From: an uncultured Acetobacteraceae bacterium
GTDB lineage: Bacteria; Pseudomonadota; Alphaproteobacteria; Acetobacterales; Acetobacteraceae
Direction of reading: 5' to 3'
DNA length: 40,392 nt
NCBI GenBank assembly: GCA_937873095.1
Contig: CALMVI010000142.1
Coordinates: forward strand, 1-40,392
Below are positions 10,143 through 36,303 of this stretch, piece by piece. Position numbers and translations under genes: made by a program. Every line of letters starts with the position of its first letter. Position 1 is the stretch's first letter. The notes under the pieces were generated by a model that worked only from the letters and a program-made list of their open reading frames with translations, was not told where the DNA came from and made no database searches.

Positions 10143-10493
10143 ATGAGCCGCATCATCCGCACCGAACCGGGCGCGCATTTCTCAAGCGCAGTCGAGCATC
10201 ACGGCTTCGTCTACACCAGGGGCTTCGTGACCGGGGATGCCTCCCTGGACATGGCCGGGCAGACCAGGGACGTGCTGGCGCAGCTTGACGCCGTGCTGGA
10301 ACGGCACGGCACCGACAACACCCGCCTGCTGCAGGCCCAGATCTGGCTCAAGCACATCGCCGACCGCCACGTCCTGAACGACATCTGGAGCGCCTGGCTG
10401 CCGGAGGGCGCCGCACCCGCCCGCGCCGTCGTTCAGGCCGAGCTCGGGCAACCGGAATGGCTGGTTGAGATAATGGTTACGTCTTGCAAGTGA
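10143..10493 (+). CDS. RidA family (YjgF) protein, cytoplasmic
   Basis: This 116-residue protein starts at ATG 10143, with GGGAG eight bases upstream. Family features are FVYTRGFVTGDASLDMAGQT, VLAQLDAVLERHGTDNTRLLQAQIWL and APARAVVQAEL. Arg94 and Glu109 correspond to the Arg105 and Glu120 used by RidA enzymes to hydrolyse 2-imino acids. The subfamily is one of the Rid groups with shortened N-terminus, so imine deaminase activity is likely but the substrate is not known. It lies 54 bases after the lipoprotein gene and may be transcribed with it. It has no signal peptide, in contrast to the second RidA protein at 30703. Confidence 0.88.
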   Translation: MSRIIRTEPGAHFSSAVEHHGFVYTRGFVTGDASLDMAGQTRDVLAQLDAVLERHGTDNTRLLQAQIWLKHIADRHVLNDIWSAWLPEGAAPARAVVQAELGQPEWLVEIMVTSCK

Positions 10494-22329: not shown

Positions 22330-23151
22330 GTGCGGCGCATTCGGTTGATCACCACGGCCGATGATTTCGGCCTGTCGGTCGGCGTAAACGAGGCGGTGCA
22401 GCAGGCGGCGACGCAGGGCATCCTGACCAGCGCCAGCCTGATGGTCGCGGGCCCCGAGGCAGCAGACGCCGTCGCGCGCGCGCGCGACACGCCAGGCCTC
22501 GCTGTCGGCCTTCATGTCGTCGTGATCGAGGGCACGCCCGTTCTGCCGCCAGAGCAGATACCCGACCTGGTCGACGAGCATGGCCAGTTCCCTTCCGGCC
22601 AGCTCAGCCTGGGGCTGAATTATTGTTTCCTGCCCAAGGTGCGCCGCCAGCTTGCCACCGAAATACGTGCCCAGTTCGCGGCGTTCTGCGCCACCGGCCT
22701 AACCCTCGACCACGCCAACGCGCACAAGCACATGCACCTGCACCCCGTGGTCGGCCGCATGATGATCGACATCGGCAGGGCGTTCGGCTTGCGCGCGATA
22801 CGCATACCCGCCGAACCGCGGTCGGGCGCCGACACGCTCGGCGCCAAGGCCCTGCGAAGCTGGTGCGCGGTGCTGCGCCGCCAGGCGCGCCGCGCCGGTC
22901 TGCTGACCAACGACCATGTATTCGGCTTGCGCGATACCGGCCATATGACGCCCAAGCGCGTTAACACCCTGCTCCGTCACCTGCCGCCGGGTTTGACCGA
23001 GCTTTACTTCCACCCCGCATCGCATCGCGACACCACGATAGCTACTTTGATGCCGAATTATGAGCACATCGCTGAGCTGGAATCCCTGCTCGGAACCGTT
23101 CTGGCGCAGGACATCGTCCTGACAACGTACAGCAAGCAAGTAGCCAAGTGA
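22330..23151 (+). CDS. hpnK: Hopanoid biosynthesis deacetylase HpnK (YdjC/ChbG fold)
   Basis: This 273-residue protein has the carbohydrate deacetylase metal site: D11-D12 in TTADDFGLSVGV, His62 (VGLHVVV), and the His cluster AHKHMHLHP with H134, H136 and H138. HpnK removes the acetyl group from bacteriohopanetetrol N-acetylglucosamine, giving the glucosamine form that HpnJ uses. The start is GTG 22330, 27 bases after hpnJ. It is the last gene of the hopanoid unit; the sequence right after it turns AT-rich and leads into a foreign-looking gene. Confidence 0.92.
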   Translation: MRRIRLITTADDFGLSVGVNEAVQQAATQGILTSASLMVAGPEAADAVARARDTPGLAVGLHVVVIEGTPVLPPEQIPDLVDEHGQFPSGQLSLGLNYCFLPKVRRQLATEIRAQFAAFCATGLTLDHANAHKHMHLHPVVGRMMIDIGRAFGLRAIRIPAEPRSGADTLGAKALRSWCAVLRRQARRAGLLTNDHVFGLRDTGHMTPKRVNTLLRHLPPGLTELYFHPASHRDTTIATLMPNYEHIAELESLLGTVLAQDIVLTTYSKQVAK

Positions 23152-23246
23152 CTAGTGCTTCCGGTAATCGAGCGTGATTTGCCTCGACTCCAAGCTGTAG
23201 AAAGTTTAACAGATTTAGAGTGGTTTAAGAATCTTAGGAGACTTAT

Positions 23247-24290
23247 GTGGAGCCTGGCAGGAATCCTTATGCCCCAGGTGCGGGGACGCCGCCGCCGACG
23301 CTTGCGGGCAGAGACGCTCTGCTAGCTGCGGCAAAGCTTGCGCTGGAACGCGTGCATAATGGCCGTTCCGCAAAAAGCTTCATCGCCGTTGGTCTTCGTG
23401 GTGTCGGTAAAACCGTCATCATGAACCAGATACAGCAATTAGCTGATGAGGAAGACTTCCGCAGCATCTACATCGAGGCGTTTGATGAAATCCGCCTTGC
23501 GGACGCCCTCACGAAGTCATTGCGGCCGGTTCTGCTGAAACTCTCGAAGAAGGCGAACGCACACGATCTGGCTATTCGTGCGCTGGCCGGTTTGCGCAGT
23601 TTCGCGAGCGCTTTCAATGTCTCCTATCAAGGTGTCGAAATGACCGTAAAACCTGAGGAGGGTCTTGCTGACACCGGCGACATGCTAGCCGACCTTCCTG
23701 ACCTTCTGCTGGCAATCGGCGAAGCTGCGAGAATAAGCGGAGGTGCGTTGGCAATCATCATTGACGAGATTCAATACTTATCCGAGATGGACATGTCCGC
23801 GTTAATTATGGCGATCCATCGATGTAATCAAAAATCTCTTCCGGTCGTAATGTTCGGCGCAGGTCTTCCGCAGCTCCGAGGCAAGATGGGTGATGCTAAG
23901 TCTTACGTCGAAAGACTTTTGGACTTTCCGCATGTTGACGCCTTGTCTTTGGAAGATGCTCGGTTGGCCATAGAGAAGCCGGCGAATGATGAAGGCGTGA
24001 GCTACACCTCGGACGCCCTTGATGAAATTCTGCGAGTCACGTCGTGCTACCCGTATTTCTTGCGCTTCATCCAGGCCGGCCGTGCCCACCTCCGCCAGGC
24101 CCTCTACATGCCAGCGCTGGCCGCCATCCGCTTCAACGCAGACATGAAAGCCAAATATCAGGCGTTGATTGCCGTAGGAAAGCCGCCAAAGGTCGCCATC
24201 ACAGCCATCATGCGAAAGCTCGCCATCCTAGCCAGCGTGCTGCTCCGGGAGGGCAGGCCATGGCACGACAGGTCCGCAGTCAACGCCTGA
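23247..24290 (+). CDS. AAA/P-loop ATPase with C-terminus replaced by an IS110 transposase tail
   Basis: The frame has 347 residues from GTG 23247, with AGGAG six bases upstream. Residues 1-275 are an ORC/STAND-like P-loop ATPase: NPYAPGAGTPPPTLAGRD, Walker A GLRGVGKTV (49-57), Walker B AIIIDEIQYL (169-178, D173/E174), a sensor-like VVMFGAGLPQL and the YPYFLRF helix. Residues from about 277 switch to AGRAHLRQALYMPALAAIRF...AITAIMRKLAIL..LLREGRPW, the C-terminal part of IS110-family transposases. Relatives of the ATPase normally continue past YPYFL, so the native C-terminus is probably lost. The ATPase part is less GC-rich than its neighbours and uses different codons, suggesting transfer. ATP binding is likely; the biological role is unknown. 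Confidence 0.8.
   Translation: MEPGRNPYAPGAGTPPPTLAGRDALLAAAKLALERVHNGRSAKSFIAVGLRGVGKTVIMNQIQQLADEEDFRSIYIEAFDEIRLADALTKSLRPVLLKLSKKANAHDLAIRALAGLRSFASAFNVSYQGVEMTVKPEEGLADTGDMLADLPDLLLAIGEAARISGGALAIIIDEIQYLSEMDMSALIMAIHRCNQKSLPVVMFGAGLPQLRGKMGDAKSYVERLLDFPHVDALSLEDARLAIEKPANDEGVSYTSDALDEILRVTSCYPYFLRFIQAGRAHLRQALYMPALAAIRFNADMKAKYQALIAVGKPPKVAITAIMRKLAILASVLLREGRPWHDRSAVNA
24075..24290 (+). mobile_element. IS110-family transposase C-terminal remnant
   Basis: About 71 codons match the Transposase_20 end region: RAHLRQALYMPAL, FNADMKAKYQALIAVGKPPK and ITAIMRKL. The N-terminal DEDD catalytic domain is absent, so the element cannot move by itself. GC content rises abruptly at the junction. 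I cannot place the downstream end of the element. Confidence 0.75.
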
Positions 24291-26444: not shown

Positions 26445-28148
26445 TCACAGCGCCGGCCCGTCATGGCCGGTCATCTCGCGCCGGATGACGGCGACCGGCA
26501 CAAGACCCGCCGCGAGGAAGCGGTCGTGGAAGCGGGCCAGGGAGAACGCGCCGCCCTCTGCCGCCTGCACGTCGCGCCGCAGCTTGAGGATTTCCAGCTT
26601 GCCCAGCGTGTATGAGAAATAGCCGGGGTCGCTGGTGCCGCGGCGCGCCTCCTTGTAGGCGACGCTGGCGGGCTGGAAGCACTGCCTGGCCATCATCTCG
26701 GCGGCGGCCGGCAGCGTCATCGCGCCGGTGTGCATGCTGATCGACGCGACCAGCCGGCAGTCGCGCAGCAGCGCGTCCTGCAGCTGCGCCAGGCGGAGTT
26801 TCGCGCCGCCGCCGCCGAGCCCCTCGTCGAGCATCATCTGCTCGCTGTAATGCGCCCAGCCCTCGGTGACGGTGTAGGAGTGCGCGGTCTTGCGGATGTC
26901 GGACCATTCCGGGTGTGCCTGGCTGAACAGGAACTGGGTGAAATGCCCCGGCAGCGCCTCGTGCACGGACAGGTTCTGCAGCAGCGGCCGGTTGAAATAG
27001 GCGAGGTAGCGGTCCTGCTTGGCGGGCGGGTCGGCCGCGTCAGGCGGCGTGATGTAGTAGTAGGCGGTCACCGCCCTGGTCTCGAACGGTCCCGGCGGAT
27101 CCAGCTCGCCGAACACCAGCGCGCGCGAGAAGGGCGGCGTCTCGCCCACCACCGGCAGCGTCTGCGCGGGCAGGTCGACGATGTGGCGCTCGGCGATGAA
27201 GCGCTGCAGCGCCGCCAGGCCGTCCCGCGCGGTCGTGATCAGCTGGGCGGCGCCCGGGTGGTCGGCCTCGATCTCGGCCAGCGCGCCGTCCGGGTCCTTG
27301 GGGTCGACCGCCCTGGCGGCCGTGCGGAACGCGTCCTGGTCGCGGGCGAGCTGGGCCCGGCCGGCGGCGAGCACTTCGGCCGGCGAGGCCTTCACCATGT
27401 CGGCGGCAAGCAGGCGCGCCAGCCCGTCCGTGCCGATCTCGAAGCGGCCATGGGCGAGCGGCTTCTGGCCGGTCAGCCAGGCCTTGTAGGCCGCCAGCGC
27501 CGCCAGCGCCTGCTGCCCGGCGCGGGCGAGCTCGGATTGCAGGCGGGCATCCCTGACGGCGGCGAAGGCCGCTGGCACGTCCTGGCGCAGGAAACCTTCG
27601 GTGCCGTCGATCTCCTCGAGCGCGATCTCGATGTAGACCGGAGGCATGTCGGTCAGGTTGCGCCGGGCCTCGGCGAACATCGCCGGTATCTGCCGCTCGC
27701 GCGAGACAGCGCTGGCCAGCCGGGCGGGCAGCGGGGCGAAATCGCGCTCGATGATCTGGTACACGCCGCTGGTCGCCAGGTCGACATAGGTGGCCGGGTT
27801 GTGCCGCCACTGCTGCACCGTCTCCAGCTCCAGCAGCTGGCCGCCGATCTCGGCCGCGAGCACGTCCCTGTCGTCGTGTTCGATGGGCGACAGGGTGCCG
27901 GCCGGCAGCGCCTGCAGCCCCGCCAGCGTGGCGTGCAGGCGGGCCGCGTCCCTGGTGTGGGCGGCCGCCGACACGTCGTCCAGCAGGGCGTCGCCGGCAT
28001 GCAGGCCCGAAGCGGTCGCTTCGGTCGGGTGTGCCGCGTATTCCTCGGCGAAATAGGCCTTGCTCAGCGAGGCGAAGCTGACCGGGCTGGCGGCGGCAGG
28101 GGCGCCGAGCGCGATGGTCAACGCCAGGGAGGAAAGATGCGCGCGCAT
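26445..28148 (-). CDS. DUF885 family exported protein (metallopeptidase-like)
   Basis: This 567-residue protein starts at ATG 28148, with GGAG nine bases upstream. The signal peptide is MRAHLSSLALTIALGAPAAAS. DUF885 proteins resemble M32/gluzincin peptidases. The HExxxxH-like motif HEALPGH lies at 396-402 and the third ligand region TEGWAHY at 428-434, with PLLQNLSV just before. The C-terminus MTLPAAAEMM...AYKEARRGTSDPGYFSYTLGKLEI is typical and the length is normal. A periplasmic zinc-dependent peptidase is the likely activity; the substrate is unknown. A longer in-frame start at 28277 would bury the signal peptide. The gene is divergent from the FAD oxidase gene. Confidence 0.9.
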   Translation of the reverse strand: MRAHLSSLALTIALGAPAAASPVSFASLSKAYFAEEYAAHPTEATASGLHAGDALLDDVSAAAHTRDAARLHATLAGLQALPAGTLSPIEHDDRDVLAAEIGGQLLELETVQQWRHNPATYVDLATSGVYQIIERDFAPLPARLASAVSRERQIPAMFAEARRNLTDMPPVYIEIALEEIDGTEGFLRQDVPAAFAAVRDARLQSELARAGQQALAALAAYKAWLTGQKPLAHGRFEIGTDGLARLLAADMVKASPAEVLAAGRAQLARDQDAFRTAARAVDPKDPDGALAEIEADHPGAAQLITTARDGLAALQRFIAERHIVDLPAQTLPVVGETPPFSRALVFGELDPPGPFETRAVTAYYYITPPDAADPPAKQDRYLAYFNRPLLQNLSVHEALPGHFTQFLFSQAHPEWSDIRKTAHSYTVTEGWAHYSEQMMLDEGLGGGGAKLRLAQLQDALLRDCRLVASISMHTGAMTLPAAAEMMARQCFQPASVAYKEARRGTSDPGYFSYTLGKLEILKLRRDVQAAEGGAFSLARFHDRFLAAGLVPVAVIRREMTGHDGPAL

Positions 28149-28305
28149 GGCCGGCCGCTCCAGGGATGCAGGTCCTACCCACGCGCCGGACCGTGGCCGA
28201 TCAACGCGCGCCACGTGCATGGGCCTCGCCGCCGCGACAGGACGCTTCGATGCGCAGAAAGGGCATGGTTTTTGCAAAGCACCGAGCCTAAACTAAGCCT
28301 ACACG

Positions 28306-28320
28306 AAGCTACACTAGCTT
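28306..28320. promoter_or_regulatory. Palindrome in the divergent promoter region of the FAD oxidase operon
   Basis: AAGCTA-CAC-TAGCTT is a perfect 6-3-6 inverted repeat 35 bases before the oxidase ATG. It is flanked by direct TAAACT repeats (28289-28294 and 28320-28325). The spot between divergent genes suits an operator. No regulator gene is adjacent. Confidence 0.35.
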
Positions 28321-28354
28321 AAACTCGCACCGCACAGCTAAGGCAACCGACGAC

Positions 28355-29926
28355 ATGGCGCAGACACGCAGGCAGTTGCTGACACGGATCGGGGCCGCGG
28401 CGGGCGGTGCCGCGATGTACCAGGCGATGACGCAGCTTGGGCACGCCACGGCCACCGATTTCGCGGGGCCGCCGACGCTGAGCGGCAGCCGCGCCGGCAC
28501 CAGCGTGCTCGTCCTGGGCGCCGGGCTGTCCGGCATGCTCGCCGCCTACGAACTTCGGCGTGCGGGCTACACGGTGCGGGTGCTGGAGTACCAGGACCGC
28601 TCCGGCGGGCGCAACTTCACCCTGCGCGGCGGCGACACGCTGACCGAGCTGGGCGGCGCCACGCAGCACGTGGACTTCGCGCCGGGCAACTACATCAACC
28701 CCGGTCCGTGGCGCATTCCGTATCACCACAACGCCATCCTGCATTATTGTCGGGCATTCGGCGTGGCGCTGGAGCCGTTCATCGAGGTGAACCACAACGC
28801 CTACCTGCACGACAGCAAGAGCTTCGGCGGGCAGCCGCAGCGCTACCGCGAGGTGCTGGCCGACTTCAACGGCTACACCGCGGAGCTGCTGGCCAAGGCG
28901 ATCGACCAGAAATCGCTCGACCTGCCGGTCAGCGACGACGAGCGTCACGACGTGAAAAAGGCGATGAAGGGGTGGGGGCTGCTGGACGCCGGCTACGCCT
29001 ATACCGGCAAGTCGGCCTCCGACCGCCGCGGCTGGGCCAAGCCGCCCGGCGCCGGGCCGGACGGCGCGCCGGTGCCGTCCGAGCCGCTGCCGCGCGCGGC
29101 GGTGATGAAGTCCGGGCTGTGGCAGTACCTGGCGTTCAACATGTCGGGCGACGTGCAGACCACCATGTTCCAGCCGGTGGGCGGCATGGACATGATCGGC
29201 CGCGCCTTCGCCAGGCAGGTCAACGACCTGGTCACCCACAACGTGCGCGTGTCGTCGATCGCCCAGAACGACGACGGAGTGACGGTGACGTATGCCGACC
29301 ATAATTTCGGCGGCGCGGAAACGCAGGTGCACGCCGATTACTGCGTGTGCACCATTCCGCTCTCCGTCCTGAGCCAGCTCGACGTGCAGGTGAGCGGGCC
29401 GATGAAGGCGGCGATCTCCTCCGTGCCCTATCATTCCTCGGTCAAGATCGGCCTGGAGTTCAAGCGGCGGTTCTGGGAGCAGGACGAGCAGATCTACGGC
29501 GGCATCAGCTTCACCGACCAGCCGATCAGCGTGATGTCCTACCCGAGCCATGGCTACTTCTCCGACGGGCCGGCGGTGATGCTGGGCGGCTACATGTTCG
29601 GCGCCGCCGCCTACGATTTCGCCGGCATGACGCCGCAGGAGCGGGTGCAGGCGGCGCTGGAGCAGGGCTCGAGAATCCATCGGCAGTATCGCACGGAGTT
29701 CGCGTCCGGGGTCGGCGTGTCCTGGAGCCGCATGCCGTGGACGCTGGGCTGCTGCGGCATGTGGAGCGAGGACGCCCGGCGCACGCATTACAAGACGCTG
29801 ACCACGATGGACGGCCGGATCGTGCTCGCGGGCGAGCATGCGTCCCATGTCGGCTGCTGGCAGGAGGGCGCGCTGCTCTCGGCACTCAGCGCCATCACCC
29901 AGCTGCACCAGCGGGCGGTCGGCTGA
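28355..29926 (+). CDS. Tat-exported flavin amine oxidase family protein
   Basis: This 523-residue FAD enzyme of the monoamine/L-amino-acid oxidase family has an N-terminal twin-arginine signal TRRQLLTRIGAAAGG (residues 4-18), so it should be exported folded with FAD. The dinucleotide site is VLVLGAGLSGMLAAYEL with GxGxxG at 55-60, then RSGGR at 82-86. ELGGATQHVDF is the region after the second Gly-rich motif, and the C-terminal FAD motif is GRIVLAGEHASHVGCWQEGALLS. The cytochrome c gene starts on its stop codon (TGATG), which suggests that electrons go to a cytochrome rather than directly to oxygen (inference). The substrate, an amine or an amino acid, is not predictable from sequence alone. 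Confidence 0.9.
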   Translation: MAQTRRQLLTRIGAAAGGAAMYQAMTQLGHATATDFAGPPTLSGSRAGTSVLVLGAGLSGMLAAYELRRAGYTVRVLEYQDRSGGRNFTLRGGDTLTELGGATQHVDFAPGNYINPGPWRIPYHHNAILHYCRAFGVALEPFIEVNHNAYLHDSKSFGGQPQRYREVLADFNGYTAELLAKAIDQKSLDLPVSDDERHDVKKAMKGWGLLDAGYAYTGKSASDRRGWAKPPGAGPDGAPVPSEPLPRAAVMKSGLWQYLAFNMSGDVQTTMFQPVGGMDMIGRAFARQVNDLVTHNVRVSSIAQNDDGVTVTYADHNFGGAETQVHADYCVCTIPLSVLSQLDVQVSGPMKAAISSVPYHSSVKIGLEFKRRFWEQDEQIYGGISFTDQPISVMSYPSHGYFSDGPAVMLGGYMFGAAAYDFAGMTPQERVQAALEQGSRIHRQYRTEFASGVGVSWSRMPWTLGCCGMWSEDARRTHYKTLTTMDGRIVLAGEHASHVGCWQEGALLSALSAITQLHQRAVG

Positions 29927-30351
29927 TGCGCCCGGTCGCCGCGGCGGCCCTGGGCGCGGCTTTGGGCGCGGCGTTCGTTCTGGCCCCTCTGCTGGCCGCC
30001 GCCGACACGGCCACCACGCTCGGCAGGGCGACGATACCGGAGCAGAGCGGCGCCGCGCTCTACCAGCACATCTGCCAAGGCTGCCACCAGGCGGGCGCCC
30101 GCGGCGCGGTGGGCGCAGGCGCGTTCCCCGCCTTGGCGGGAAACCCGAAACTGGCGGTGTCCGGCTATCCGGTCAGCATGGTGCTGAACGGCAATGGCGG
30201 CATGCCCTGGTTCAACGGACAGCTGAGCGACGCCCAGGTGGCGGACGTGGTGAACTACGTGCGCACGCATTTCGGTAACGCCTACACCGATGCCGTGACG
30301 CCGGCCGACGTTGCCGCGGCCCGCGGGCCGGTGCCGGTGATGGAGCGCTGA
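29926..30351 (+). CDS. Periplasmic c-type cytochrome
   Basis: This 141-residue monohaem cytochrome c has a signal peptide (VAAAALGAALGAAFVLAPLLAAA) and the haem site C50-Q-G-C53-H54. The probable distal ligand is Met93 in NGNGGMPWFNGQLSD, and the terminal helix is VADVVNYVRTHFGN. Class I fold. The ATG overlaps the oxidase TGA by one base, so the two proteins are translationally coupled and very likely form an electron-transfer pair, with the cytochrome passing electrons to a terminal oxidase. It is followed by a 351-base gap with hairpins. Confidence 0.93.
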   Translation: MRPVAAAALGAALGAAFVLAPLLAAADTATTLGRATIPEQSGAALYQHICQGCHQAGARGAVGAGAFPALAGNPKLAVSGYPVSMVLNGNGGMPWFNGQLSDAQVADVVNYVRTHFGNAYTDAVTPADVAAARGPVPVMER

Positions 30352-30702
30352 GCGCAGCGGCTGCGTAGACAGGCCAGGGGCGCTGCTCCTGGACCTAGCC
30401 GGGGTCTGAAACCCCAGATCCCCATTTCAGATTGCGCGTGAACTGCCTCACCTGCGGGTGAACGGTGCGATTCTGCCTGTGCGATAGGCAGTGTCGTGCT
30501 CGGCGAAAAGCGCAGCCCCGCCAAGTTCCGTGTTGCGTAATGTTCGCGCCAGGTCGATGTCTCGGCGCACCGATCCTTAAGACCGTCCGTGCACTCGTTT
30601 CCAGAGCGTGACGCCGGCGCGGCATCGAACTTGCAGGAACGTTGCCCAGTCGTGACGCGGCCGTGATCCCGGCCGGACGTCCGATGACTGGGGAGTGCCA
30701 CG
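30352..30702. other. Intergenic region with hairpins between cytochrome c and exported RidA
   Basis: This 351-base gap has no gene that I can support. It holds a stem CCAGG/CCTGG (30374-30392), GGGGT-CTGAA-ACCCC (30401-30415, related to the palindrome at 14703) and CTGCCT/AGGCAG (30473-30491). The first two could end transcription of the oxidase-cytochrome pair. A promoter for ridA probably lies in the second half, but I see no convincing -35/-10 pair. Confidence 0.45.
30401..30415 (+). terminator. Hairpin after the cytochrome c gene
   Basis: GGGGT-CTGAA-ACCCC is a 5-bp stem 50 bases after the stop, preceded by a weaker stem at 30374-30392. No U-run follows, so terminator activity is only possible. 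Confidence 0.3.
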
Positions 30703-31254
30703 ATGATTCCGACGGGTACAGTATCGAGACAACGGGCGCCGCGCGCGGGAGTTCCGGCCACTCGTCGCATTGCCGGTGCGGTTGCCGCATCGGCCCTCAT
30801 CATGGGCGCGGCCCGGGCGCAGAACGTCGTGCGGCTGCCCGTGCCCAACAGCGACTTTCCGATTTCGGCCGCAGTCACCGTCAAGTCCGGCACCGACCTC
30901 GTCTTCCTCAGCGGCGCGCTGGCGCCGGTGATCGATGCGAACGCGCCCAAGGGCAGCCAGGCGGCCTATGGCGACACAGCGACCCAGACCGCCGGCGCCC
31001 TGGAAAGAATCAAGGAGACGCTCGGCCGGATGGGGCTCGGCATGGGCGACGTGATCAAGATGACCGTTTTCCTGGCGGGCGACGCCAGCAAGGGCGGCAA
31101 GATGGATTTCGCCGGCCTGATGACCGGCTACACCAAGTATTTCGGCACCAAGGACCAGTCCAACAAGCCGGCGCGCAGCGCCGTGCAGGTGGCCGCCCTG
31201 GCCGCCCCCGGCGCCCTGGTGGAGATCGAAGTGATCGCCGCCAAGCCGCACTGA
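30703..31254 (+). CDS. Exported RidA family protein
   Basis: This 183-residue protein starts at ATG 30703, with GGGAG seven bases upstream. Residues 1-39 form an export signal, with Arg-rich start, ATRRIAGAVAASALIMGAARA and cleavage after ARA; the RR pair could make it a Tat substrate. The RidA domain follows: TDLVFLSGALAPVID, TQTAGALERIKETLGRMGLGMGDVIKMTVFL and NKPARSAVQVAALAAPGALVEIEVIAA. Arg158 and Glu174 match the catalytic Arg105/Glu120 of imine deaminases. Most RidA proteins are cytoplasmic; export next to an exported amine oxidase suggests hydrolysis of the imine product in the periplasm. The TonB receptor gene follows after 47 bases. Confidence 0.9.
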   Translation: MIPTGTVSRQRAPRAGVPATRRIAGAVAASALIMGAARAQNVVRLPVPNSDFPISAAVTVKSGTDLVFLSGALAPVIDANAPKGSQAAYGDTATQTAGALERIKETLGRMGLGMGDVIKMTVFLAGDASKGGKMDFAGLMTGYTKYFGTKDQSNKPARSAVQVAALAAPGALVEIEVIAAKPH

Positions 31255-31301
31255 ACGTCTCCACGGACCGGCGAACAGGACCGGCAACGAACAGGATCGA
31301 C

Positions 31302-34253
31302 ATGACAAAACGATACATGCTGGCCTCCGCTGCCACAGCCGCCGCCCTGGCCCTCTGCCATCCCGCGGCGATGGCGCAGACGGCGCCCACGCAGCCGCAG
31401 GCAGCGTCCGTCCCGCCGCCCACGGCCGCCGGGGGAGAGCAGTTGGCGCAGGCAGCAGCTCCGGGCAATCCGGATACGGGCAGCGACGCCAACCAGTTGT
31501 CCGGCGAGCACGCCGACGACGTGATCGTAACCGGCACACGCCAGTCCGGACGCACCCGGCAGTCGAGCCCCGCCCCGGTCGACGTGATCAGCGCGGCCGA
31601 GCTGACGCGCACCGGGCAGCAGAACGTGTTCGACGCGCTGAACGTGCTGCTGCCGAGCTTCGACCTTCCGCCGATCGGCTTCGACACCGCGGGCCTGGTG
31701 CGATCGGCCCGACTGCGCGGCCTGAGCCCCGACGACGTGCTGGTGCTGGTCGACGGCAAGCGGCGTCACGTCAGCGCCAACATCAACGCCGATATCGGCC
31801 CGGTCGGCGGTTCGGACCCCGTCGATTTTGACATGATCCCGATCAGCCTGATCGACCACATCGAAGTGCTGCGCGACGGTGCGGCCGCCCAGTACGGCTC
31901 GGACGCGATCGCGGGCGTGATCAACATCATCCTCAAGCACAACGATTACGGCACCACCGCCTACGCGCAGGAGGGTGCGACCTACGTCCAGGACGGGTTC
32001 ACCAACAACGTGGGCGCCAGCCACGGCTTTTCGCTGGGCGGCAACGGCTATTTCGACGTGGCCGGCGACTACCGCTACCACGACCACACCAACCGAGACG
32101 GCATCTATCCGTCAGACACGGTCGTGGGGTCGCAGCTGAACCCGCCGTTCAACGTGCCGAACAAGAACAACATCAGCCAGATCGAGGGCGACCCGCGCTA
32201 CAACCTGGCCAATCTGGGCTACAACGCGGCCTACACCTTCGCGCCGGAAGCGACCGTGTATTCGTTCGCCACCTGGGGCTACCGGCATTCCGAAGCGTTC
32301 GAGAACTATCGTGATCCCAACACGAGCGGAACCTACAGCCCGACCGCGATCACGCCGACGACGCCGTTCGGCAACCTGACCGCCGCCGGCCAGTACCCGA
32401 ACGGCTTCGAGCCGCTGGAGGCGATCAACGAGAACGATTATTCCGGCACCGTCGGCCTGAAGGGCGACGTGCTCGATGGCTGGCACTACGATGTCAGCGC
32501 GACCTATGGCGGCGACGTCGACAACATCTCCACCCTCGCCTCGATCAACACCGATTACCTGCACGCGTTCGGCGTCTCGCCCACGCATTTCCATGCCGGC
32601 GAGTACAACGACACCGAACTGACCACCAACCTCGACATCAACCGGCCGTTCGAGACCGGCATCTTCGCGGCCCCGCTCAGCGTCGCGTTCGGCGGCGAGT
32701 TCCGCCACGACACCTACCAGCTGGAGCCGGGCGACGCGCCGTCGCAGTACGGCGGCGGCTCGCAGGCCTATCCCGGCTTCACCAACGTCGACGCCGGCTA
32801 TTATCACCGCAGCAACGGCGCGGGCTACATCGACCTCGCGACCTCGCCGGTGCCGCATTGGCAGGTCGACGTCGCCGGCCGCTTCGAGCACTACACCGAT
32901 GTCGGCGACACCGAGACCGGCAAGTTCACCAGCCGCTACGACATCACGCCGACGCTTGCCGTGCGCGCGACGATCAGCAACGGCTTCCGGGCGCCGACGC
33001 TGGCGCAGGAAGGGTTCGCCGCCGTCAACGTGGGCCCGGTCACCGCGGGCGGCCAGTTCCCGGTCAACTCGCCCGCCGCCCGTGCGCTCGGCTCGGTGCC
33101 GCTGAAGCCGGAGCGGACCAACAACTACGAGTTCGGCATCGTGGCGACCCCGGTGGAACGCCTGCACGTGGCGCTCGACCTGTACCAGATCGACATACGC
33201 GACAGGATCGTCGATTCCGGCCTGATCGGCGGCGCCAACGCCTTCGAGGCGTTTGCGCTGAGCGGCGCCCTGCCGCCCACCTGCTCGCCCGGCAGCGGCT
33301 GCAACCTGTACGCGCAGTATTACACCAACGGCGTCGACACCCAGACCAGGGGTGCCGACCTGACCGTCGACTACGTCTCGCTGCTCGGCGATTACGGCAA
33401 GATCAACTGGTTCTTCGGCGCCAACTTCAACGACACCGAGCTGACCCGCGTTGCGCAGCAGGCGCAGTTCACGCCGGACGTGCTGTCCGAAATCACCACC
33501 GACACGCCGAAGAGCAAGCTGATCCTGCAGGGCACCTACACCTACGGCCCATGGACGGCGCTGCTGCGCGGCACGCGTTACGGCACCTCCGTCGAGGTGC
33601 TGGCGGACGGCAACACCGGTGCCGCGCCGTTCACCGCGAACCGCAACAGGCCCGCCTATATCGGCGACGTCGAGTTCGGCTACAGGATCACGAAGGAAAT
33701 CACGGTGACGGTCGGCGCCAACAACTTCACCGACAAATACGCCGCACATACGACTGCCGCCTCGCGCTACCACAACGCGGTCGAATACATCCCCTCCTCG
33801 CCCTACGGCATCGATGGCGGGTTCTATTACGGCCGGGTGAACGTGGCGTTCGGCACGCCGCCCGAGCCGACGCCCGCCTCGCCAGGCGTCGTCAACGCGC
33901 CGCCGCCGGCCCCGGCCGTGCCGGTGCGCACCTACCTCGTGTTCTTCGACTGGGACCGCGCCGACCTGACCGACCGCGCACGGCAGATCGTCAGCACCGC
34001 GGCACAGGCTTCGAGCCATGTGCAGACGACGCGCATCGAGGTGAACGGCTATACCGACCTGTCTGGCACCGCTTCCTACAACCAGCGGCTGTCGATCCGC
34101 CGGGCGCAGAGCGTGGAGAGCGAGCTGGTGCGCGACGGGGTGGCGCGCAGCGAGATCGCCATCCACGGCTACGGCGAGACCAACCCGCTGGTGCCGACCG
34201 CCAAGGGCGTGCGCGAGCCGCAGAACCGGAGGGTCGAGATCATCCTGAAATAG
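31302..34253 (+). CDS. TonB-dependent receptor with C-terminal OmpA-like domain
   Basis: This 983-residue outer-membrane protein starts at ATG 31302, with AGGA five bases upstream. The signal peptide is MTKRYMLASAATAAALALCH, cleaved after PAAMA. The TonB box/plug begins DDVIVTGTRQ near residue 70. LRGLSPDDVLVLVDGKRRH and IEVLRDGAAAQYGSDAIAGVINIILK are classic plug motifs. The barrel extends to GGFYYGRVNVAFG near residue 850. A Pro-rich linker then leads to an OmpA peptidoglycan-binding domain (880-983): VFFDWDRADLTDRARQIV, VNGYTDLSGTASYNQRLSIRRA and GETNPL...QNRRVEI. The fusion is unusual but topologically sensible, because the C-terminus of the barrel faces the periplasm. The ligand is unknown. 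Confidence 0.93.
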   Translation: MTKRYMLASAATAAALALCHPAAMAQTAPTQPQAASVPPPTAAGGEQLAQAAAPGNPDTGSDANQLSGEHADDVIVTGTRQSGRTRQSSPAPVDVISAAELTRTGQQNVFDALNVLLPSFDLPPIGFDTAGLVRSARLRGLSPDDVLVLVDGKRRHVSANINADIGPVGGSDPVDFDMIPISLIDHIEVLRDGAAAQYGSDAIAGVINIILKHNDYGTTAYAQEGATYVQDGFTNNVGASHGFSLGGNGYFDVAGDYRYHDHTNRDGIYPSDTVVGSQLNPPFNVPNKNNISQIEGDPRYNLANLGYNAAYTFAPEATVYSFATWGYRHSEAFENYRDPNTSGTYSPTAITPTTPFGNLTAAGQYPNGFEPLEAINENDYSGTVGLKGDVLDGWHYDVSATYGGDVDNISTLASINTDYLHAFGVSPTHFHAGEYNDTELTTNLDINRPFETGIFAAPLSVAFGGEFRHDTYQLEPGDAPSQYGGGSQAYPGFTNVDAGYYHRSNGAGYIDLATSPVPHWQVDVAGRFEHYTDVGDTETGKFTSRYDITPTLAVRATISNGFRAPTLAQEGFAAVNVGPVTAGGQFPVNSPAARALGSVPLKPERTNNYEFGIVATPVERLHVALDLYQIDIRDRIVDSGLIGGANAFEAFALSGALPPTCSPGSGCNLYAQYYTNGVDTQTRGADLTVDYVSLLGDYGKINWFFGANFNDTELTRVAQQAQFTPDVLSEITTDTPKSKLILQGTYTYGPWTALLRGTRYGTSVEVLADGNTGAAPFTANRNRPAYIGDVEFGYRITKEITVTVGANNFTDKYAAHTTAASRYHNAVEYIPSSPYGIDGGFYYGRVNVAFGTPPEPTPASPGVVNAPPPAPAVPVRTYLVFFDWDRADLTDRARQIVSTAAQASSHVQTTRIEVNGYTDLSGTASYNQRLSIRRAQSVESELVRDGVARSEIAIHGYGETNPLVPTAKGVREPQNRRVEIILK

Positions 34254-34259
34254 ACGAGT

Positions 34260-34294
34260 GCCGCCCGCAGCCGCAACGGCCGGTTGCGGGCGGC
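34260..34294 (+). terminator. Strong hairpin after the TonB receptor gene
   Basis: GCCGCCCGCA (34260-34269) pairs perfectly with TGCGGGCGGC (34285-34294), seven bases after the receptor stop. There is no U-run. It argues that the GNAT gene starts after it, at GTG 34300, not at GTG 34258. Confidence 0.55.
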
Positions 34295-34299
34295 ACGGC

Positions 34300-34836
34300 G
34301 TGACGGACGTGTTTGCTCCCCGCCCGGCGACGCGGGACGACCTGCCCGCCCTGCGCGCGCTGATGGCCGACGCGATCGGCACGCTGCAGCGCGGCTTCCT
34401 CGACGCGGAGCAGATCGAGGCGAGCCGGCAGGTGATGGGGCTGGACACCCAGCTCGTCGATGACGGCACCTACGTCGTCGTCGAGGCGGCAGGCGTGATT
34501 GCCGGCTGCGGCGGCTGGAGCTGGCGCGCCACGCTGTTCGGCGGCGACCACACTGCCGGGCGTTCGGCCGCCGCCCTCGACCCCGCGCAGGACGCGGCGA
34601 GGATACGGGCGATGTACACCGCCCCGGCCTTCGCGCGGCGGGGGGTCGGGCGGCTGGTGCTGGCGCTGTGCGAGGACGCCGCCCGCAACGCGGGTTTCCG
34701 CCGTGCCGAACTCGCGTCCACGCGCGCTGGGCTGCCGCTCTACGCCGCATGCGGCTACGCCGTCCTCGAGCATTTCGAGGCCGTGCATGGCGGCCAGCGC
34801 ATTCCGCTGGCCAGGATGGAGAAGCGGCTCGCCTGA
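34300..34836 (+). CDS. GNAT family N-acetyltransferase
   Basis: This 178-residue protein starts at GTG 34300 (MTDVFAPRPATRDDLPALRALM). The GNAT core includes VVVEAAGVIAGCGGWSW, then RIRAMYTAPAFARRGVGRLVLALCEDAARNAG with the acetyl-CoA loop RRGVGR, and AELASTRAGLPLYAACGYAVLEHFE. The acceptor is unknown. An earlier GTG at 34258 is in frame but would place the hairpin that closes the receptor gene within the coding sequence. The GH1-like gene follows 120 bases later. Confidence 0.88.
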   Translation: MTDVFAPRPATRDDLPALRALMADAIGTLQRGFLDAEQIEASRQVMGLDTQLVDDGTYVVVEAAGVIAGCGGWSWRATLFGGDHTAGRSAAALDPAQDAARIRAMYTAPAFARRGVGRLVLALCEDAARNAGFRRAELASTRAGLPLYAACGYAVLEHFEAVHGGQRIPLARMEKRLA

Positions 34837-34956
34837 GCCGGGTGCGCGGTCACGCCCGGTCGGCGCAGTTTGCCTGGCAACCCGGCCGGTGGTCGCGGGT
34901 TGCACGACGGTCAACCCGGATGTCTCCGTCGTCCGCACGCCAGGGGAGTGCCCACG

Positions 34957-36303
34957 TTGAGTCCGCATCGAGATGGCGCGGTTCCGGCCCAGCCGGAGCC
35001 GGACCCGCCGCTGGCCCTGTGGGGCGGGGTCGAGTGCAGCGTGGTCAGGGTCGGCGACGTCTGGCGCGACCAGCTGCGCGACACCGGCCACCACGACAGG
35101 GGGGCCGAGGATGTGGCCCGGCTGGCAGGGCTCGGGCTGCGCACGCTGCGCTACCCGCTGCTCTGGGAACGGCACGGTGCGATGGATGCGGACGCGTCGG
35201 CCTGGCACACGAGGCAGCTGGCCAGCCTGGAGGCGCATGGCATCGAGGTGATCGCCGGGCTGGTGCATCACGGCTCGGGTCCCGCCGGGACCGACCTGCT
35301 GGACCCGCTGTTCCCCGAGCGCCTGGCCGAGCACGCGTCCGCGATGGCACGGCTGCATCCCGGGGTGCGGCGCTGGATACCGGTTAACGAGCCGCTGACG
35401 ACCGCCCGCTTCGCCTGCCTGTACGGCCACTGGTACCCGCATCTGCAGGACGAGGGCGCGTTCCTGCGCGCGACGGCCAACCAGTGCCGCGCCACCCTGC
35501 TGGCGATGCGGGCGATCCGCGCCCATGACCGGAACGCGGCGTTCGTCAGCACGGAGGATATCGGCCGGGTGTTTTCGACCGAGACGCTGGCTGGGCAGGC
35601 CGGCTACGAGAACGACCGCCGCTGGCTGAGCCTGGACCTGCTGTGCGGCCGCGTCGGCGCGCACCACCCCTGGCGCGGCTACCTGGAGGGGCATGGCGTG
35701 CCCGCATCCCACCTGGACGAGCTGGCCACCGGGGAAGCGGCCCCGGACGTGATCGGGGTCAACCACTACGCGACCAGCGACCGCTTCCTGGACCACCGGG
35801 TGCAGCTGTACCCGCGGCAGCTGCGCGGCGGCAACGGCCGCATGGAGTACGTGGACACCGAGGCGGTGCGCGCCGGCGTGGCCTCCAGCCGCGTCGGCTG
35901 GCTGCCGCGGCTGCGGGAGGTGTGGTCGCGCTACGGCCGGACCATGGCGCTGACCGAGGTGCATCTGGGCTGCGACGACCCTGCCGAATCGGTGCGCTGG
36001 CTGATGGAGGCGTGGCGCGCGGCCGAGGCAATGCGGGCGGAGGGCGCGCGCTGCGTGGGCGTGACCGCCTGGGCGCTGTTCGGCCTGGTGGACTGGGACA
36101 GCCTGCTGCGCGAGAGGCGCGGCCGGGTGGAGCCGGGCGCGTTCGACACGCGCGCCGAGCCGCCCAGGCCGACGCTGATCGCCGAGGCGGTCCGTGCGCT
36201 GGCGCAGGACGGCAGGTTCGTCCATCCGTCGCTGAACCGGCCAGGCTGGTGGCGCCGGGCAGACCGCGTGCATGAGGGCCTGCGCACGCCCGAAGCGGCG
36301 TGA
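34957..36303 (+). CDS. Family 1 glycoside hydrolase-like protein
   Basis: This 448-residue (beta/alpha)8 protein is distantly GH1-like: LALWGGVECSVVRVGD near residue 19, then GLRTLRYPLLWERHG, the acid/base motif PVNEP with Glu145, DVIGVNHYATSDRF and the nucleophile region ALTEVHLGCD with Glu334. Both catalytic glutamates are kept, so glycosidase activity is possible. Relatives also occur fused to dTDP-rhamnose reductase-like domains, which are absent here. The start TTG 34957 has GGGGAG eight bases before it; GTG 34948 lies too close to that site. No signal peptide is present. The stop overlaps the ABC exporter start by four bases. Confidence 0.85.
   Translation: MSPHRDGAVPAQPEPDPPLALWGGVECSVVRVGDVWRDQLRDTGHHDRGAEDVARLAGLGLRTLRYPLLWERHGAMDADASAWHTRQLASLEAHGIEVIAGLVHHGSGPAGTDLLDPLFPERLAEHASAMARLHPGVRRWIPVNEPLTTARFACLYGHWYPHLQDEGAFLRATANQCRATLLAMRAIRAHDRNAAFVSTEDIGRVFSTETLAGQAGYENDRRWLSLDLLCGRVGAHHPWRGYLEGHGVPASHLDELATGEAAPDVIGVNHYATSDRFLDHRVQLYPRQLRGGNGRMEYVDTEAVRAGVASSRVGWLPRLREVWSRYGRTMALTEVHLGCDDPAESVRWLMEAWRAAEAMRAEGARCVGVTAWALFGLVDWDSLLRERRGRVEPGAFDTRAEPPRPTLIAEAVRALAQDGRFVHPSLNRPGWWRRADRVHEGLRTPEAA

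Follow-up and report, generated by a model that had tools for sequence, protein, structure and literature searches.

A predicted periplasmic L-amino acid oxidation cluster of the lao-cccA-ridA kind beside an OmpA-tailed TonB receptor gene in an uncultured Acetobacteraceae bacterium

The window analysed here, a stretch of 40,392 nucleotides from an uncultured Acetobacteraceae bacterium, carries four co-directional genes for a flavoprotein, a cytochrome c, a RidA-family protein and a TonB receptor, raising the question of whether these genes act together and on what substrate. An original prediction made from the DNA letters had described them as a periplasmic module for amine or amino acid oxidation, and ORF and Pfam analysis bears out the position and strand of all four genes (28355-34253, forward strand; Table 1). 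The cluster is real and sensible; its core is already known, and the pairing with cytochrome c, the recurrent receptor and the OmpA-tailed form of that receptor are extensions of it. The reading favoured here, with a probability of roughly 0.72, is a unit of the lao-cccA-ridA kind that breaks down L-amino acids in the periplasm, with the receptor probably importing the substrate.

Table 1. Features of the cluster and of other parts of the window (E-values are given with the matched family or structure).
Feature	Position	Strand	Evidence
Flavoprotein, L-amino acid oxidase (LAAO) type, Tat-type leader	28355..29926	+	523 aa; Amino_oxidase 2.8e-55; best solved structure 2JAE, E 2.8e-84
Monohaem cytochrome c (cccA type), predicted exported by motif	29926..30351	+	141 aa; Cytochrome_CBB3 4.2e-13; CQGCH and Met-Pro motif
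RidA-family protein, N-terminal leader, Rid3 signature	30703..31254	+	183 aa; Ribonuc_L-PSP 1.6e-19
TonB receptor, whole gene	31302..34253	+	983 aa
TonB receptor, plug and barrel part (residues 1-850)	31302..33851	+	Plug 1.7e-20 (86-206), barrel 6.1e-32 (335-808)
Pro-rich linker and OmpA-type domain, fused after the barrel	33852..34253	+	PF00691 1.9e-17, residues 881-976
GNAT acetyltransferase, 3' of the receptor	34258..34836	+	PF00583 5e-10
Second RidA-family gene	10143..10493	+	116 aa
Stretch of low G+C	23001..24000		G+C 0.53
ATPase-like ORF	23247..24290		by eye
DUF885 peptidase gene	26445..28184	-	Pfam 5.4e-88; HExxH by eye
Dyad AAGCTA-CAC-TAGCTT	28306..28320		perfect
GH1-like ORF	34870..36303		
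tRNA-Ser (aga), probably a false call	36078..36161		ARAGORN

The stop codon of the flavoprotein gene, lao (TGA, 29924-29926), and the ATG of the cytochrome gene at 29926 have one base in common, in agreement with the overlap originally described. A gap of 351 bp separates the cytochrome gene from ridA, and 47 bp lie between ridA and the receptor gene. In relatives with a downstream RidA, the RidA frame begins near or overlapping the end of the cytochrome gene, the exact gaps being uncertain because the earliest start was taken. Scanning 28100-34900 for promoters and terminators returned no promoters and three terminator-like sites, against 3.8 in shuffles. A GNAT gene also lies 3' of the receptor in G049 and G128 (L080, L157), two genomes of the window's genus, with an extra ORF intervening in G128. 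On the other side, an exported-looking DUF885 gene is divergent from lao; considered as a fifth member, this peptidase was rejected, with no match above 35 bits near lao in 76 relative loci.

The flavoprotein N-terminus starts MAQTRRQLLTRIG, a twin-arginine motif recognised by eye, and R5 and R6 are unchanged in 23/23 aligned sequences, consistent with the Tat-type export that had been predicted. Among solved structures the top match is 2JAE, the Rhodococcus L-amino acid oxidase, over residues 47-521; the 25 NCBIfam families listed against the flavoprotein all stay below their cut-offs. In the alignment of 23 sequences R120 and K364 are invariant and Y413 is nearly so. R120 and Y413 align with Arg84 and Tyr371 of the Rhodococcus enzyme, which we take to be its alpha-carboxylate binders, and K364 aligns with what is presumably the flavin-side lysine, near flavin N5. 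Retention of the carboxylate-binding Arg and Tyr positions makes an L-amino acid a likelier substrate than a simple amine; of the two classes first put forward, amino acids gain and amines become less likely. The window protein thus resembles the Rhodococcus opacus LAAO in its best structure match and its carboxylate-binding positions, and differs from it by the Tat leader and a dedicated cytochrome c.

The first three genes have a published counterpart in lao-cccA-ridA of Gluconacetobacter diazotrophicus PAL5 (GDI2456-2455-2454; PMC5053998), with the same order and strand. Orthology is supported by the primers of that study, 6/6 of which match G246 (L087) with amplicons of 152, 220 and 214 as published, and 5/6 of which match G214 (L086); the lao of G246 is 71% identical to that of the window. 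The original remark that no described pathway with this exact set was known is not supported: three of the four genes are those of the published cluster. According to the available text of PMC5053998, two G. diazotrophicus lao Tn5 mutants lose tryptophan-derived IAA, transcript levels of lao, cccA and ridA drop together, and a Tat-dependent periplasmic location is suggested. Electron transfer from LAAO to the cytochrome was already proposed by those authors, and older work that they cite reports 5% of the IAA in ccm (cytochrome c maturation) mutants. Unlike that cluster, the window has ridA at a distance of 351 bp from the cytochrome gene and, following ridA, the gene for an OmpA-bearing TonB receptor. 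TonB does not occur in the main text of PMC5053998, and the receptor beside lao is the newer part relative to the published three-gene cluster.

Relatives were gathered within the family and beyond it. A lao orthologue was defined as a full-length match of at least 53% identity, giving 47 places in 41 of 299 family genomes, window included; 241/299 genomes match the flavoprotein, many through the FAD-binding stretch alone. The wider named set, the best 80 of 573 confirmed stretches, includes Acetobacter, Gluconacetobacter, Komagataeibacter, Lichenicoccus, Caulobacter, Phenylobacterium, Sphingobium, Novosphingobium, Mesorhizobium and others. Pooling gave 126 loci, or 117 after removal of nine with identical lao DNA, window excluded; these loci have 53-78% identity and are not independent, several coming from one genus.

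Judging from their names, the genera among the best 80 of 573 presumably fall in Caulobacterales, Sphingomonadales, Hyphomicrobiales and other orders, and so wide a distribution of lao weighs against the view that the cluster serves physiologically to make auxin (IAA, by way of indole-3-pyruvate) for plant contact, and not for catabolism. Broad deamination of amino acids may instead yield auxin as a by-product. In favour of the auxin view stand the loss of IAA in G. diazotrophicus lao mutants and the smaller roots of rice inoculated with one of them (PMC5053998, available text), together with Chlamydomonas, where periplasmic LAO1 with its RidA-type partner LAO2 yields IAA from tryptophan outside the cell (PMC10805672). 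The Chlamydomonas pair is alike in joining an extracytoplasmic LAAO to a RidA partner, and differs in being eukaryotic and reportedly peroxide-producing, the available text of PMC10805672 naming neither a cytochrome c nor a receptor. On balance we regard auxin as an improbable primary role.

The cytochrome c gene is the most constant companion of lao. A cytochrome c match lies directly downstream in 46/46 family orthologues outside the window, and lao/cytochrome start overlaps of 1 or 4 bases are common among relatives. For the pooled loci, which include the best 80 of 573, those with less than 700 bp downstream were dropped, leaving 112 of 117; tblastn finds the cytochrome c gene directly downstream in 101/112. 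The other 11 (L199, L209, L211, L214, L221, L226, L229, L234, L235, L236 and L245) have a CXXCH protein of 145-203 aa immediately upstream of lao, which in L199 and L214 sits between two lao copies. An adjoining cytochrome c gene is accordingly present in 112/112 evaluable distinct loci. As a control, 30 distant homologues of 35-43% identity gave a cytochrome match in 4/30, a few contigs ending nearby, and the same four alone have a CXXCH frame of at least 85 aa within 900 bp on the lao strand. This contrast between the clade and its distant homologues identifies cytochrome pairing as a mark of this lao clade. In the cytochrome itself, the Cys, Cys-His and Met-Pro positions are conserved in more than 90% of 51 aligned sequences.

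The well-known LAAOs are oxidases, and the window enzyme could likewise be an exported true oxidase that passes electrons to oxygen and makes hydrogen peroxide, with the cytochrome c serving something else. The complete pairing and the frequent 1- and 4-base overlaps, set against 4/30 in distant homologues, argue otherwise, as does the loss of IAA in G. diazotrophicus ccm mutants cited in PMC5053998. The available text of PMC12224317, a survey seeded with NicA2, bears on both sides: a Tat signal with an adjacent cytochrome c gene predicted cytochrome c use, which stopped flow confirmed in other clades (clade 1 was slow with cytochrome c), and Tat-exported FAOs without a nearby cytochrome gene are fast with oxygen. 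The window has this combination of Tat leader, by eye, and adjacent cytochrome gene, which it shares with flavoprotein amine dehydrogenases that use cytochrome c, such as NicA2 and Pnao. It differs from them in its LAAO-type flavoprotein, its expected amino acid substrate and its RidA partner. Chiefly because of the complete pairing, and following PMC12224317, the evidence supports the reading of the flavoprotein as a cytochrome c-linked dehydrogenase, as originally proposed; the acceptor is assigned by linkage and by analogy with those enzymes. A true oxidase appears unlikely. As far as its text is available, the open-licence PMC literature yielded no report of cytochrome c use by a lao-clade enzyme.

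The RidA-family protein, encoded like the receptor on the same strand, has an N-terminal leader, in line with the export originally described. Its closest solved structures are PSPTO3006 and PFL1385, both Rid3 members with demonstrated imine deaminase activity (PMC5619798, available text). The Rid3 rule, in which Arg and Glu are retained and Tyr becomes Ile (PMC4433059, available text), applies in the alignment to the window RidA, to three lao-linked Acetobacteraceae RidAs and to three Sphingobium RidAs. By this signature the window RidA is of the Rid3 type, and it differs from PSPTO3006 and PFL1385 by its predicted export leader and its exported flavoprotein neighbour. A clustering of RidA genes, sometimes Rid3, with FAD amine oxidase genes is described in PMC4433059.

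Linkage of RidA to lao is less constant than that of the cytochrome. RidA lies immediately behind the cytochrome on the same strand in 30/46 family orthologues and is absent there in 16/46. The co-occurrence anticipated by the original prediction is therefore complete for the cytochrome in the family orthologues, only partial for RidA, and weaker for the receptor in the pooled loci. In the pool, which includes the best 80 of 573, 96 loci have 3 kb on both sides of lao, and of these 86 have a downstream cytochrome, 53 a RidA within 3 kb, 28 a receptor and 14 the full set. Caulobacter and Phenylobacterium loci, some on short contigs, have no RidA or receptor nearby, bar one weak reverse-strand RidA match in L217; PMC5053998, in its available text, cites conservation in Caulobacter from OperonDB, unlike the loci examined here. 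The window also holds a second RidA-family gene, without leader and without Rid3 signature (Table 1).

Whether the TonB receptor belongs to the unit is the more delicate matter. A receptor lies within 3 kb of lao in 31/117 pooled loci (best 80 of 573 included). Measured from the lao edge, receptors number 0.096 per kb within the first kb, 0.023 and then 0.019 per kb over the second and third, and 0.005-0.010 per kb between 3 and 8 kb, an enrichment beside lao of about tenfold over distant flanks. The linkage is recurrent but optional. The periplasmic module first envisaged is upheld in its linked set of flavoprotein, cytochrome c and RidA with export motifs, and loosened in its receptor.

Gene order elsewhere is informative. 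Sphingobium L225 and L237 carry, on a single strand and in this sequence, receptor, RidA, lao and cytochrome c, and Sphingobium L214 and Sphingomonas L199 have receptor, RidA, lao, cytochrome and lao on one strand; the Sphingobium loci indicate that all four genes also occur together in a different bacterial order, arranged differently. In L237 the run continues with an aminotransferase-family protein bearing a twin-arginine leader, and then a second exported RidA. Such twin-arginine-like aminotransferase-family proteins stand by lao at L225:9970-11106 and L237:9976-11244 (Pfam-checked in L237), each followed by a second RidA-like gene with leader, and perhaps serve periplasmic transamination. 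A gene for a TonB protein (TonB_C 5.7e-15) lies directly 3' of receptor and RidA at L194:13938-14588, in a cluster where lao is present twice.

Within the window's genus the ridA-receptor pair is retained in 3/3 sampled genomes, the RidA of G128 being partial because a contig end leaves its last 55 residues. In G049 the block of ridA, receptor and GNAT genes faces the opposite way to lao-cccA, and in G128 it stands on a separate contig, so that lao-cccA and ridA-receptor need not share a transcript.

These data leave considerable room, short of an even chance, for a lao-cccA-ridA core that works as proposed beside an unrelated TonB receptor, for instance one for iron or another nutrient that happens to adjoin ridA. 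Consistent with such an accidental neighbour are the receptor's presence in just 31/117 loci, the inverted block in G049 and the many-copy nature of its subfamily, which has members at E<=1e-60 in 28/41 lao genomes, from 1 to 8 per genome. Neighbours of the receptor paralogues away from lao likewise have no common theme among the 25 commonest families of 20 regions (85/104 ORFs; the other 19, mostly very long or doubtful, were omitted). An unrelated receptor is, however, harder to reconcile with the steep drop in density away from lao, with the one-strand four-gene sets in L225, L237, L214 and L199, whose order is unlike that of the window, and with the pair kept in every sampled genome of the genus.

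The receptor also carries an OmpA domain that the original prediction did not mention. The window barrel ends ...GGFYYGRVNVAF at residue 850 and passes through the Pro-rich linker into this domain, whereas the Sphingobium receptors stop at a similar barrel end, ...GGYYYARIDFKF or the like, without extension. Among the matches listed, the whole barrel-OmpA junction is matched at 58% or above in 4/298 family genomes: the window, G049 and G128 from one genus and G080 from another. The other matches listed cover mostly the OmpA part, and the few longer ones lie in frames that, at about 400-520 aa, are too small to encode a receptor; the three long OmpA-containing frames examined (L158, L159, L160) have no match to the receptor barrel. 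With 77-81% identity to the OmpA-domain frames C98, C27, C39 and C93 of the same genome, the tail was probably copied from one of them. No description of a TonB barrel with an OmpA tail was found in the open-licence PMC literature. From its domain content, the receptor in the window's clade may be tethered to the cell wall through the OmpA domain. In G080, the OmpA-tailed receptor is preceded by a RidA-like stretch (L156:220-456, 37% over 88 aa) that lacks an intact frame and is probably a decayed gene.

Upstream regions of lao were compared, 51 in number and reduced to 35 once near-duplicates were removed. No shared operator emerged, as no word or dyad is common to most of the 35; a few words, such as AAACAGGC in 6/35, lie at or just above the maximum of single-base shuffles. 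The window itself has a perfect dyad 34 bp before lao, a possible operator (Table 1), which is not shared among the upstream regions listed. A palindromic element built on a CTTTTTTT-NN-AAAAAG core recurs among relatives, in L080, L075, L078, L156, L157 and L160; a 20-base form of it, allowing up to 2 mismatches, is absent from the window. In L080 copies of the element separate lao from the haem-encoding part of the cytochrome gene, which makes the cytochrome frame start there uncertain.

Keto acids from amino acid deaminases have been reported as siderophores in Proteus and relatives, and periplasmic keto acids could in the same way serve here as iron chelators imported by the neighbouring TonB receptor. 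In G. diazotrophicus a Fur box predicted ahead of nuoA-N and lao fits this idea (PMC9368920, available text), but that box precedes the whole nuo operon. Upstream regions of lao offer no motif common to most of the 35, and the 25 commonest neighbour families of the receptor paralogues show no iron theme, with an Rrf2-type regulator met twice. An iron-chelating purpose is accordingly very improbable.

Elsewhere in the window, G+C falls to 0.53 in one stretch, against mostly 0.62-0.77 in the rest; an ATPase-like ORF sits there, and this stretch is maybe foreign DNA. The tRNA-Ser call lies within the GH1-like ORF (Table 1).

What the sequences themselves show is the content, order, motifs and linkage of the genes. 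Taken as a periplasmic L-amino acid catabolic unit, the cluster would work as follows. The Tat-exported flavoprotein would take two electrons from an L-alpha-amino acid, presumably by hydride transfer to FAD, and release an imino acid. FAD would be reoxidised by the dedicated cytochrome c and not by oxygen, so that the electrons would enter the respiratory chain. The exported Rid3 protein would speed the hydrolysis of the imine to keto acid and ammonia. Entry through the TonB receptor of a substrate bearing an amino acid (free amino acid, peptide or chelate) is probable and is the weakest step, and the OmpA domain may tether the receptor to the wall in this clade. The complete version, in which dedicated receptor import feeds an L-amino acid dehydrogenase that is exported by Tat, depends on cytochrome c and is served by an imine deaminase of its own, all periplasmic and without cytoplasmic uptake, behind a wall-tethered TonB-OmpA receptor in the clade, is a tentative and rather doubtful proposal.

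The analysis yields a testable claim, namely that the LAAO of a widespread, mainly alphaproteobacterial clade, the enzyme behind G. diazotrophicus auxin, is a cytochrome c-linked dehydrogenase and not an oxidase. If true, this reading would unite two older observations, the loss of IAA in both lao and ccm mutants, and would extend the amine oxidoreductase superfamily, itself recently revised, by a further branch. As the recurrence of the TonB receptor suggests, the substrate may enter by active transport across the outer membrane.
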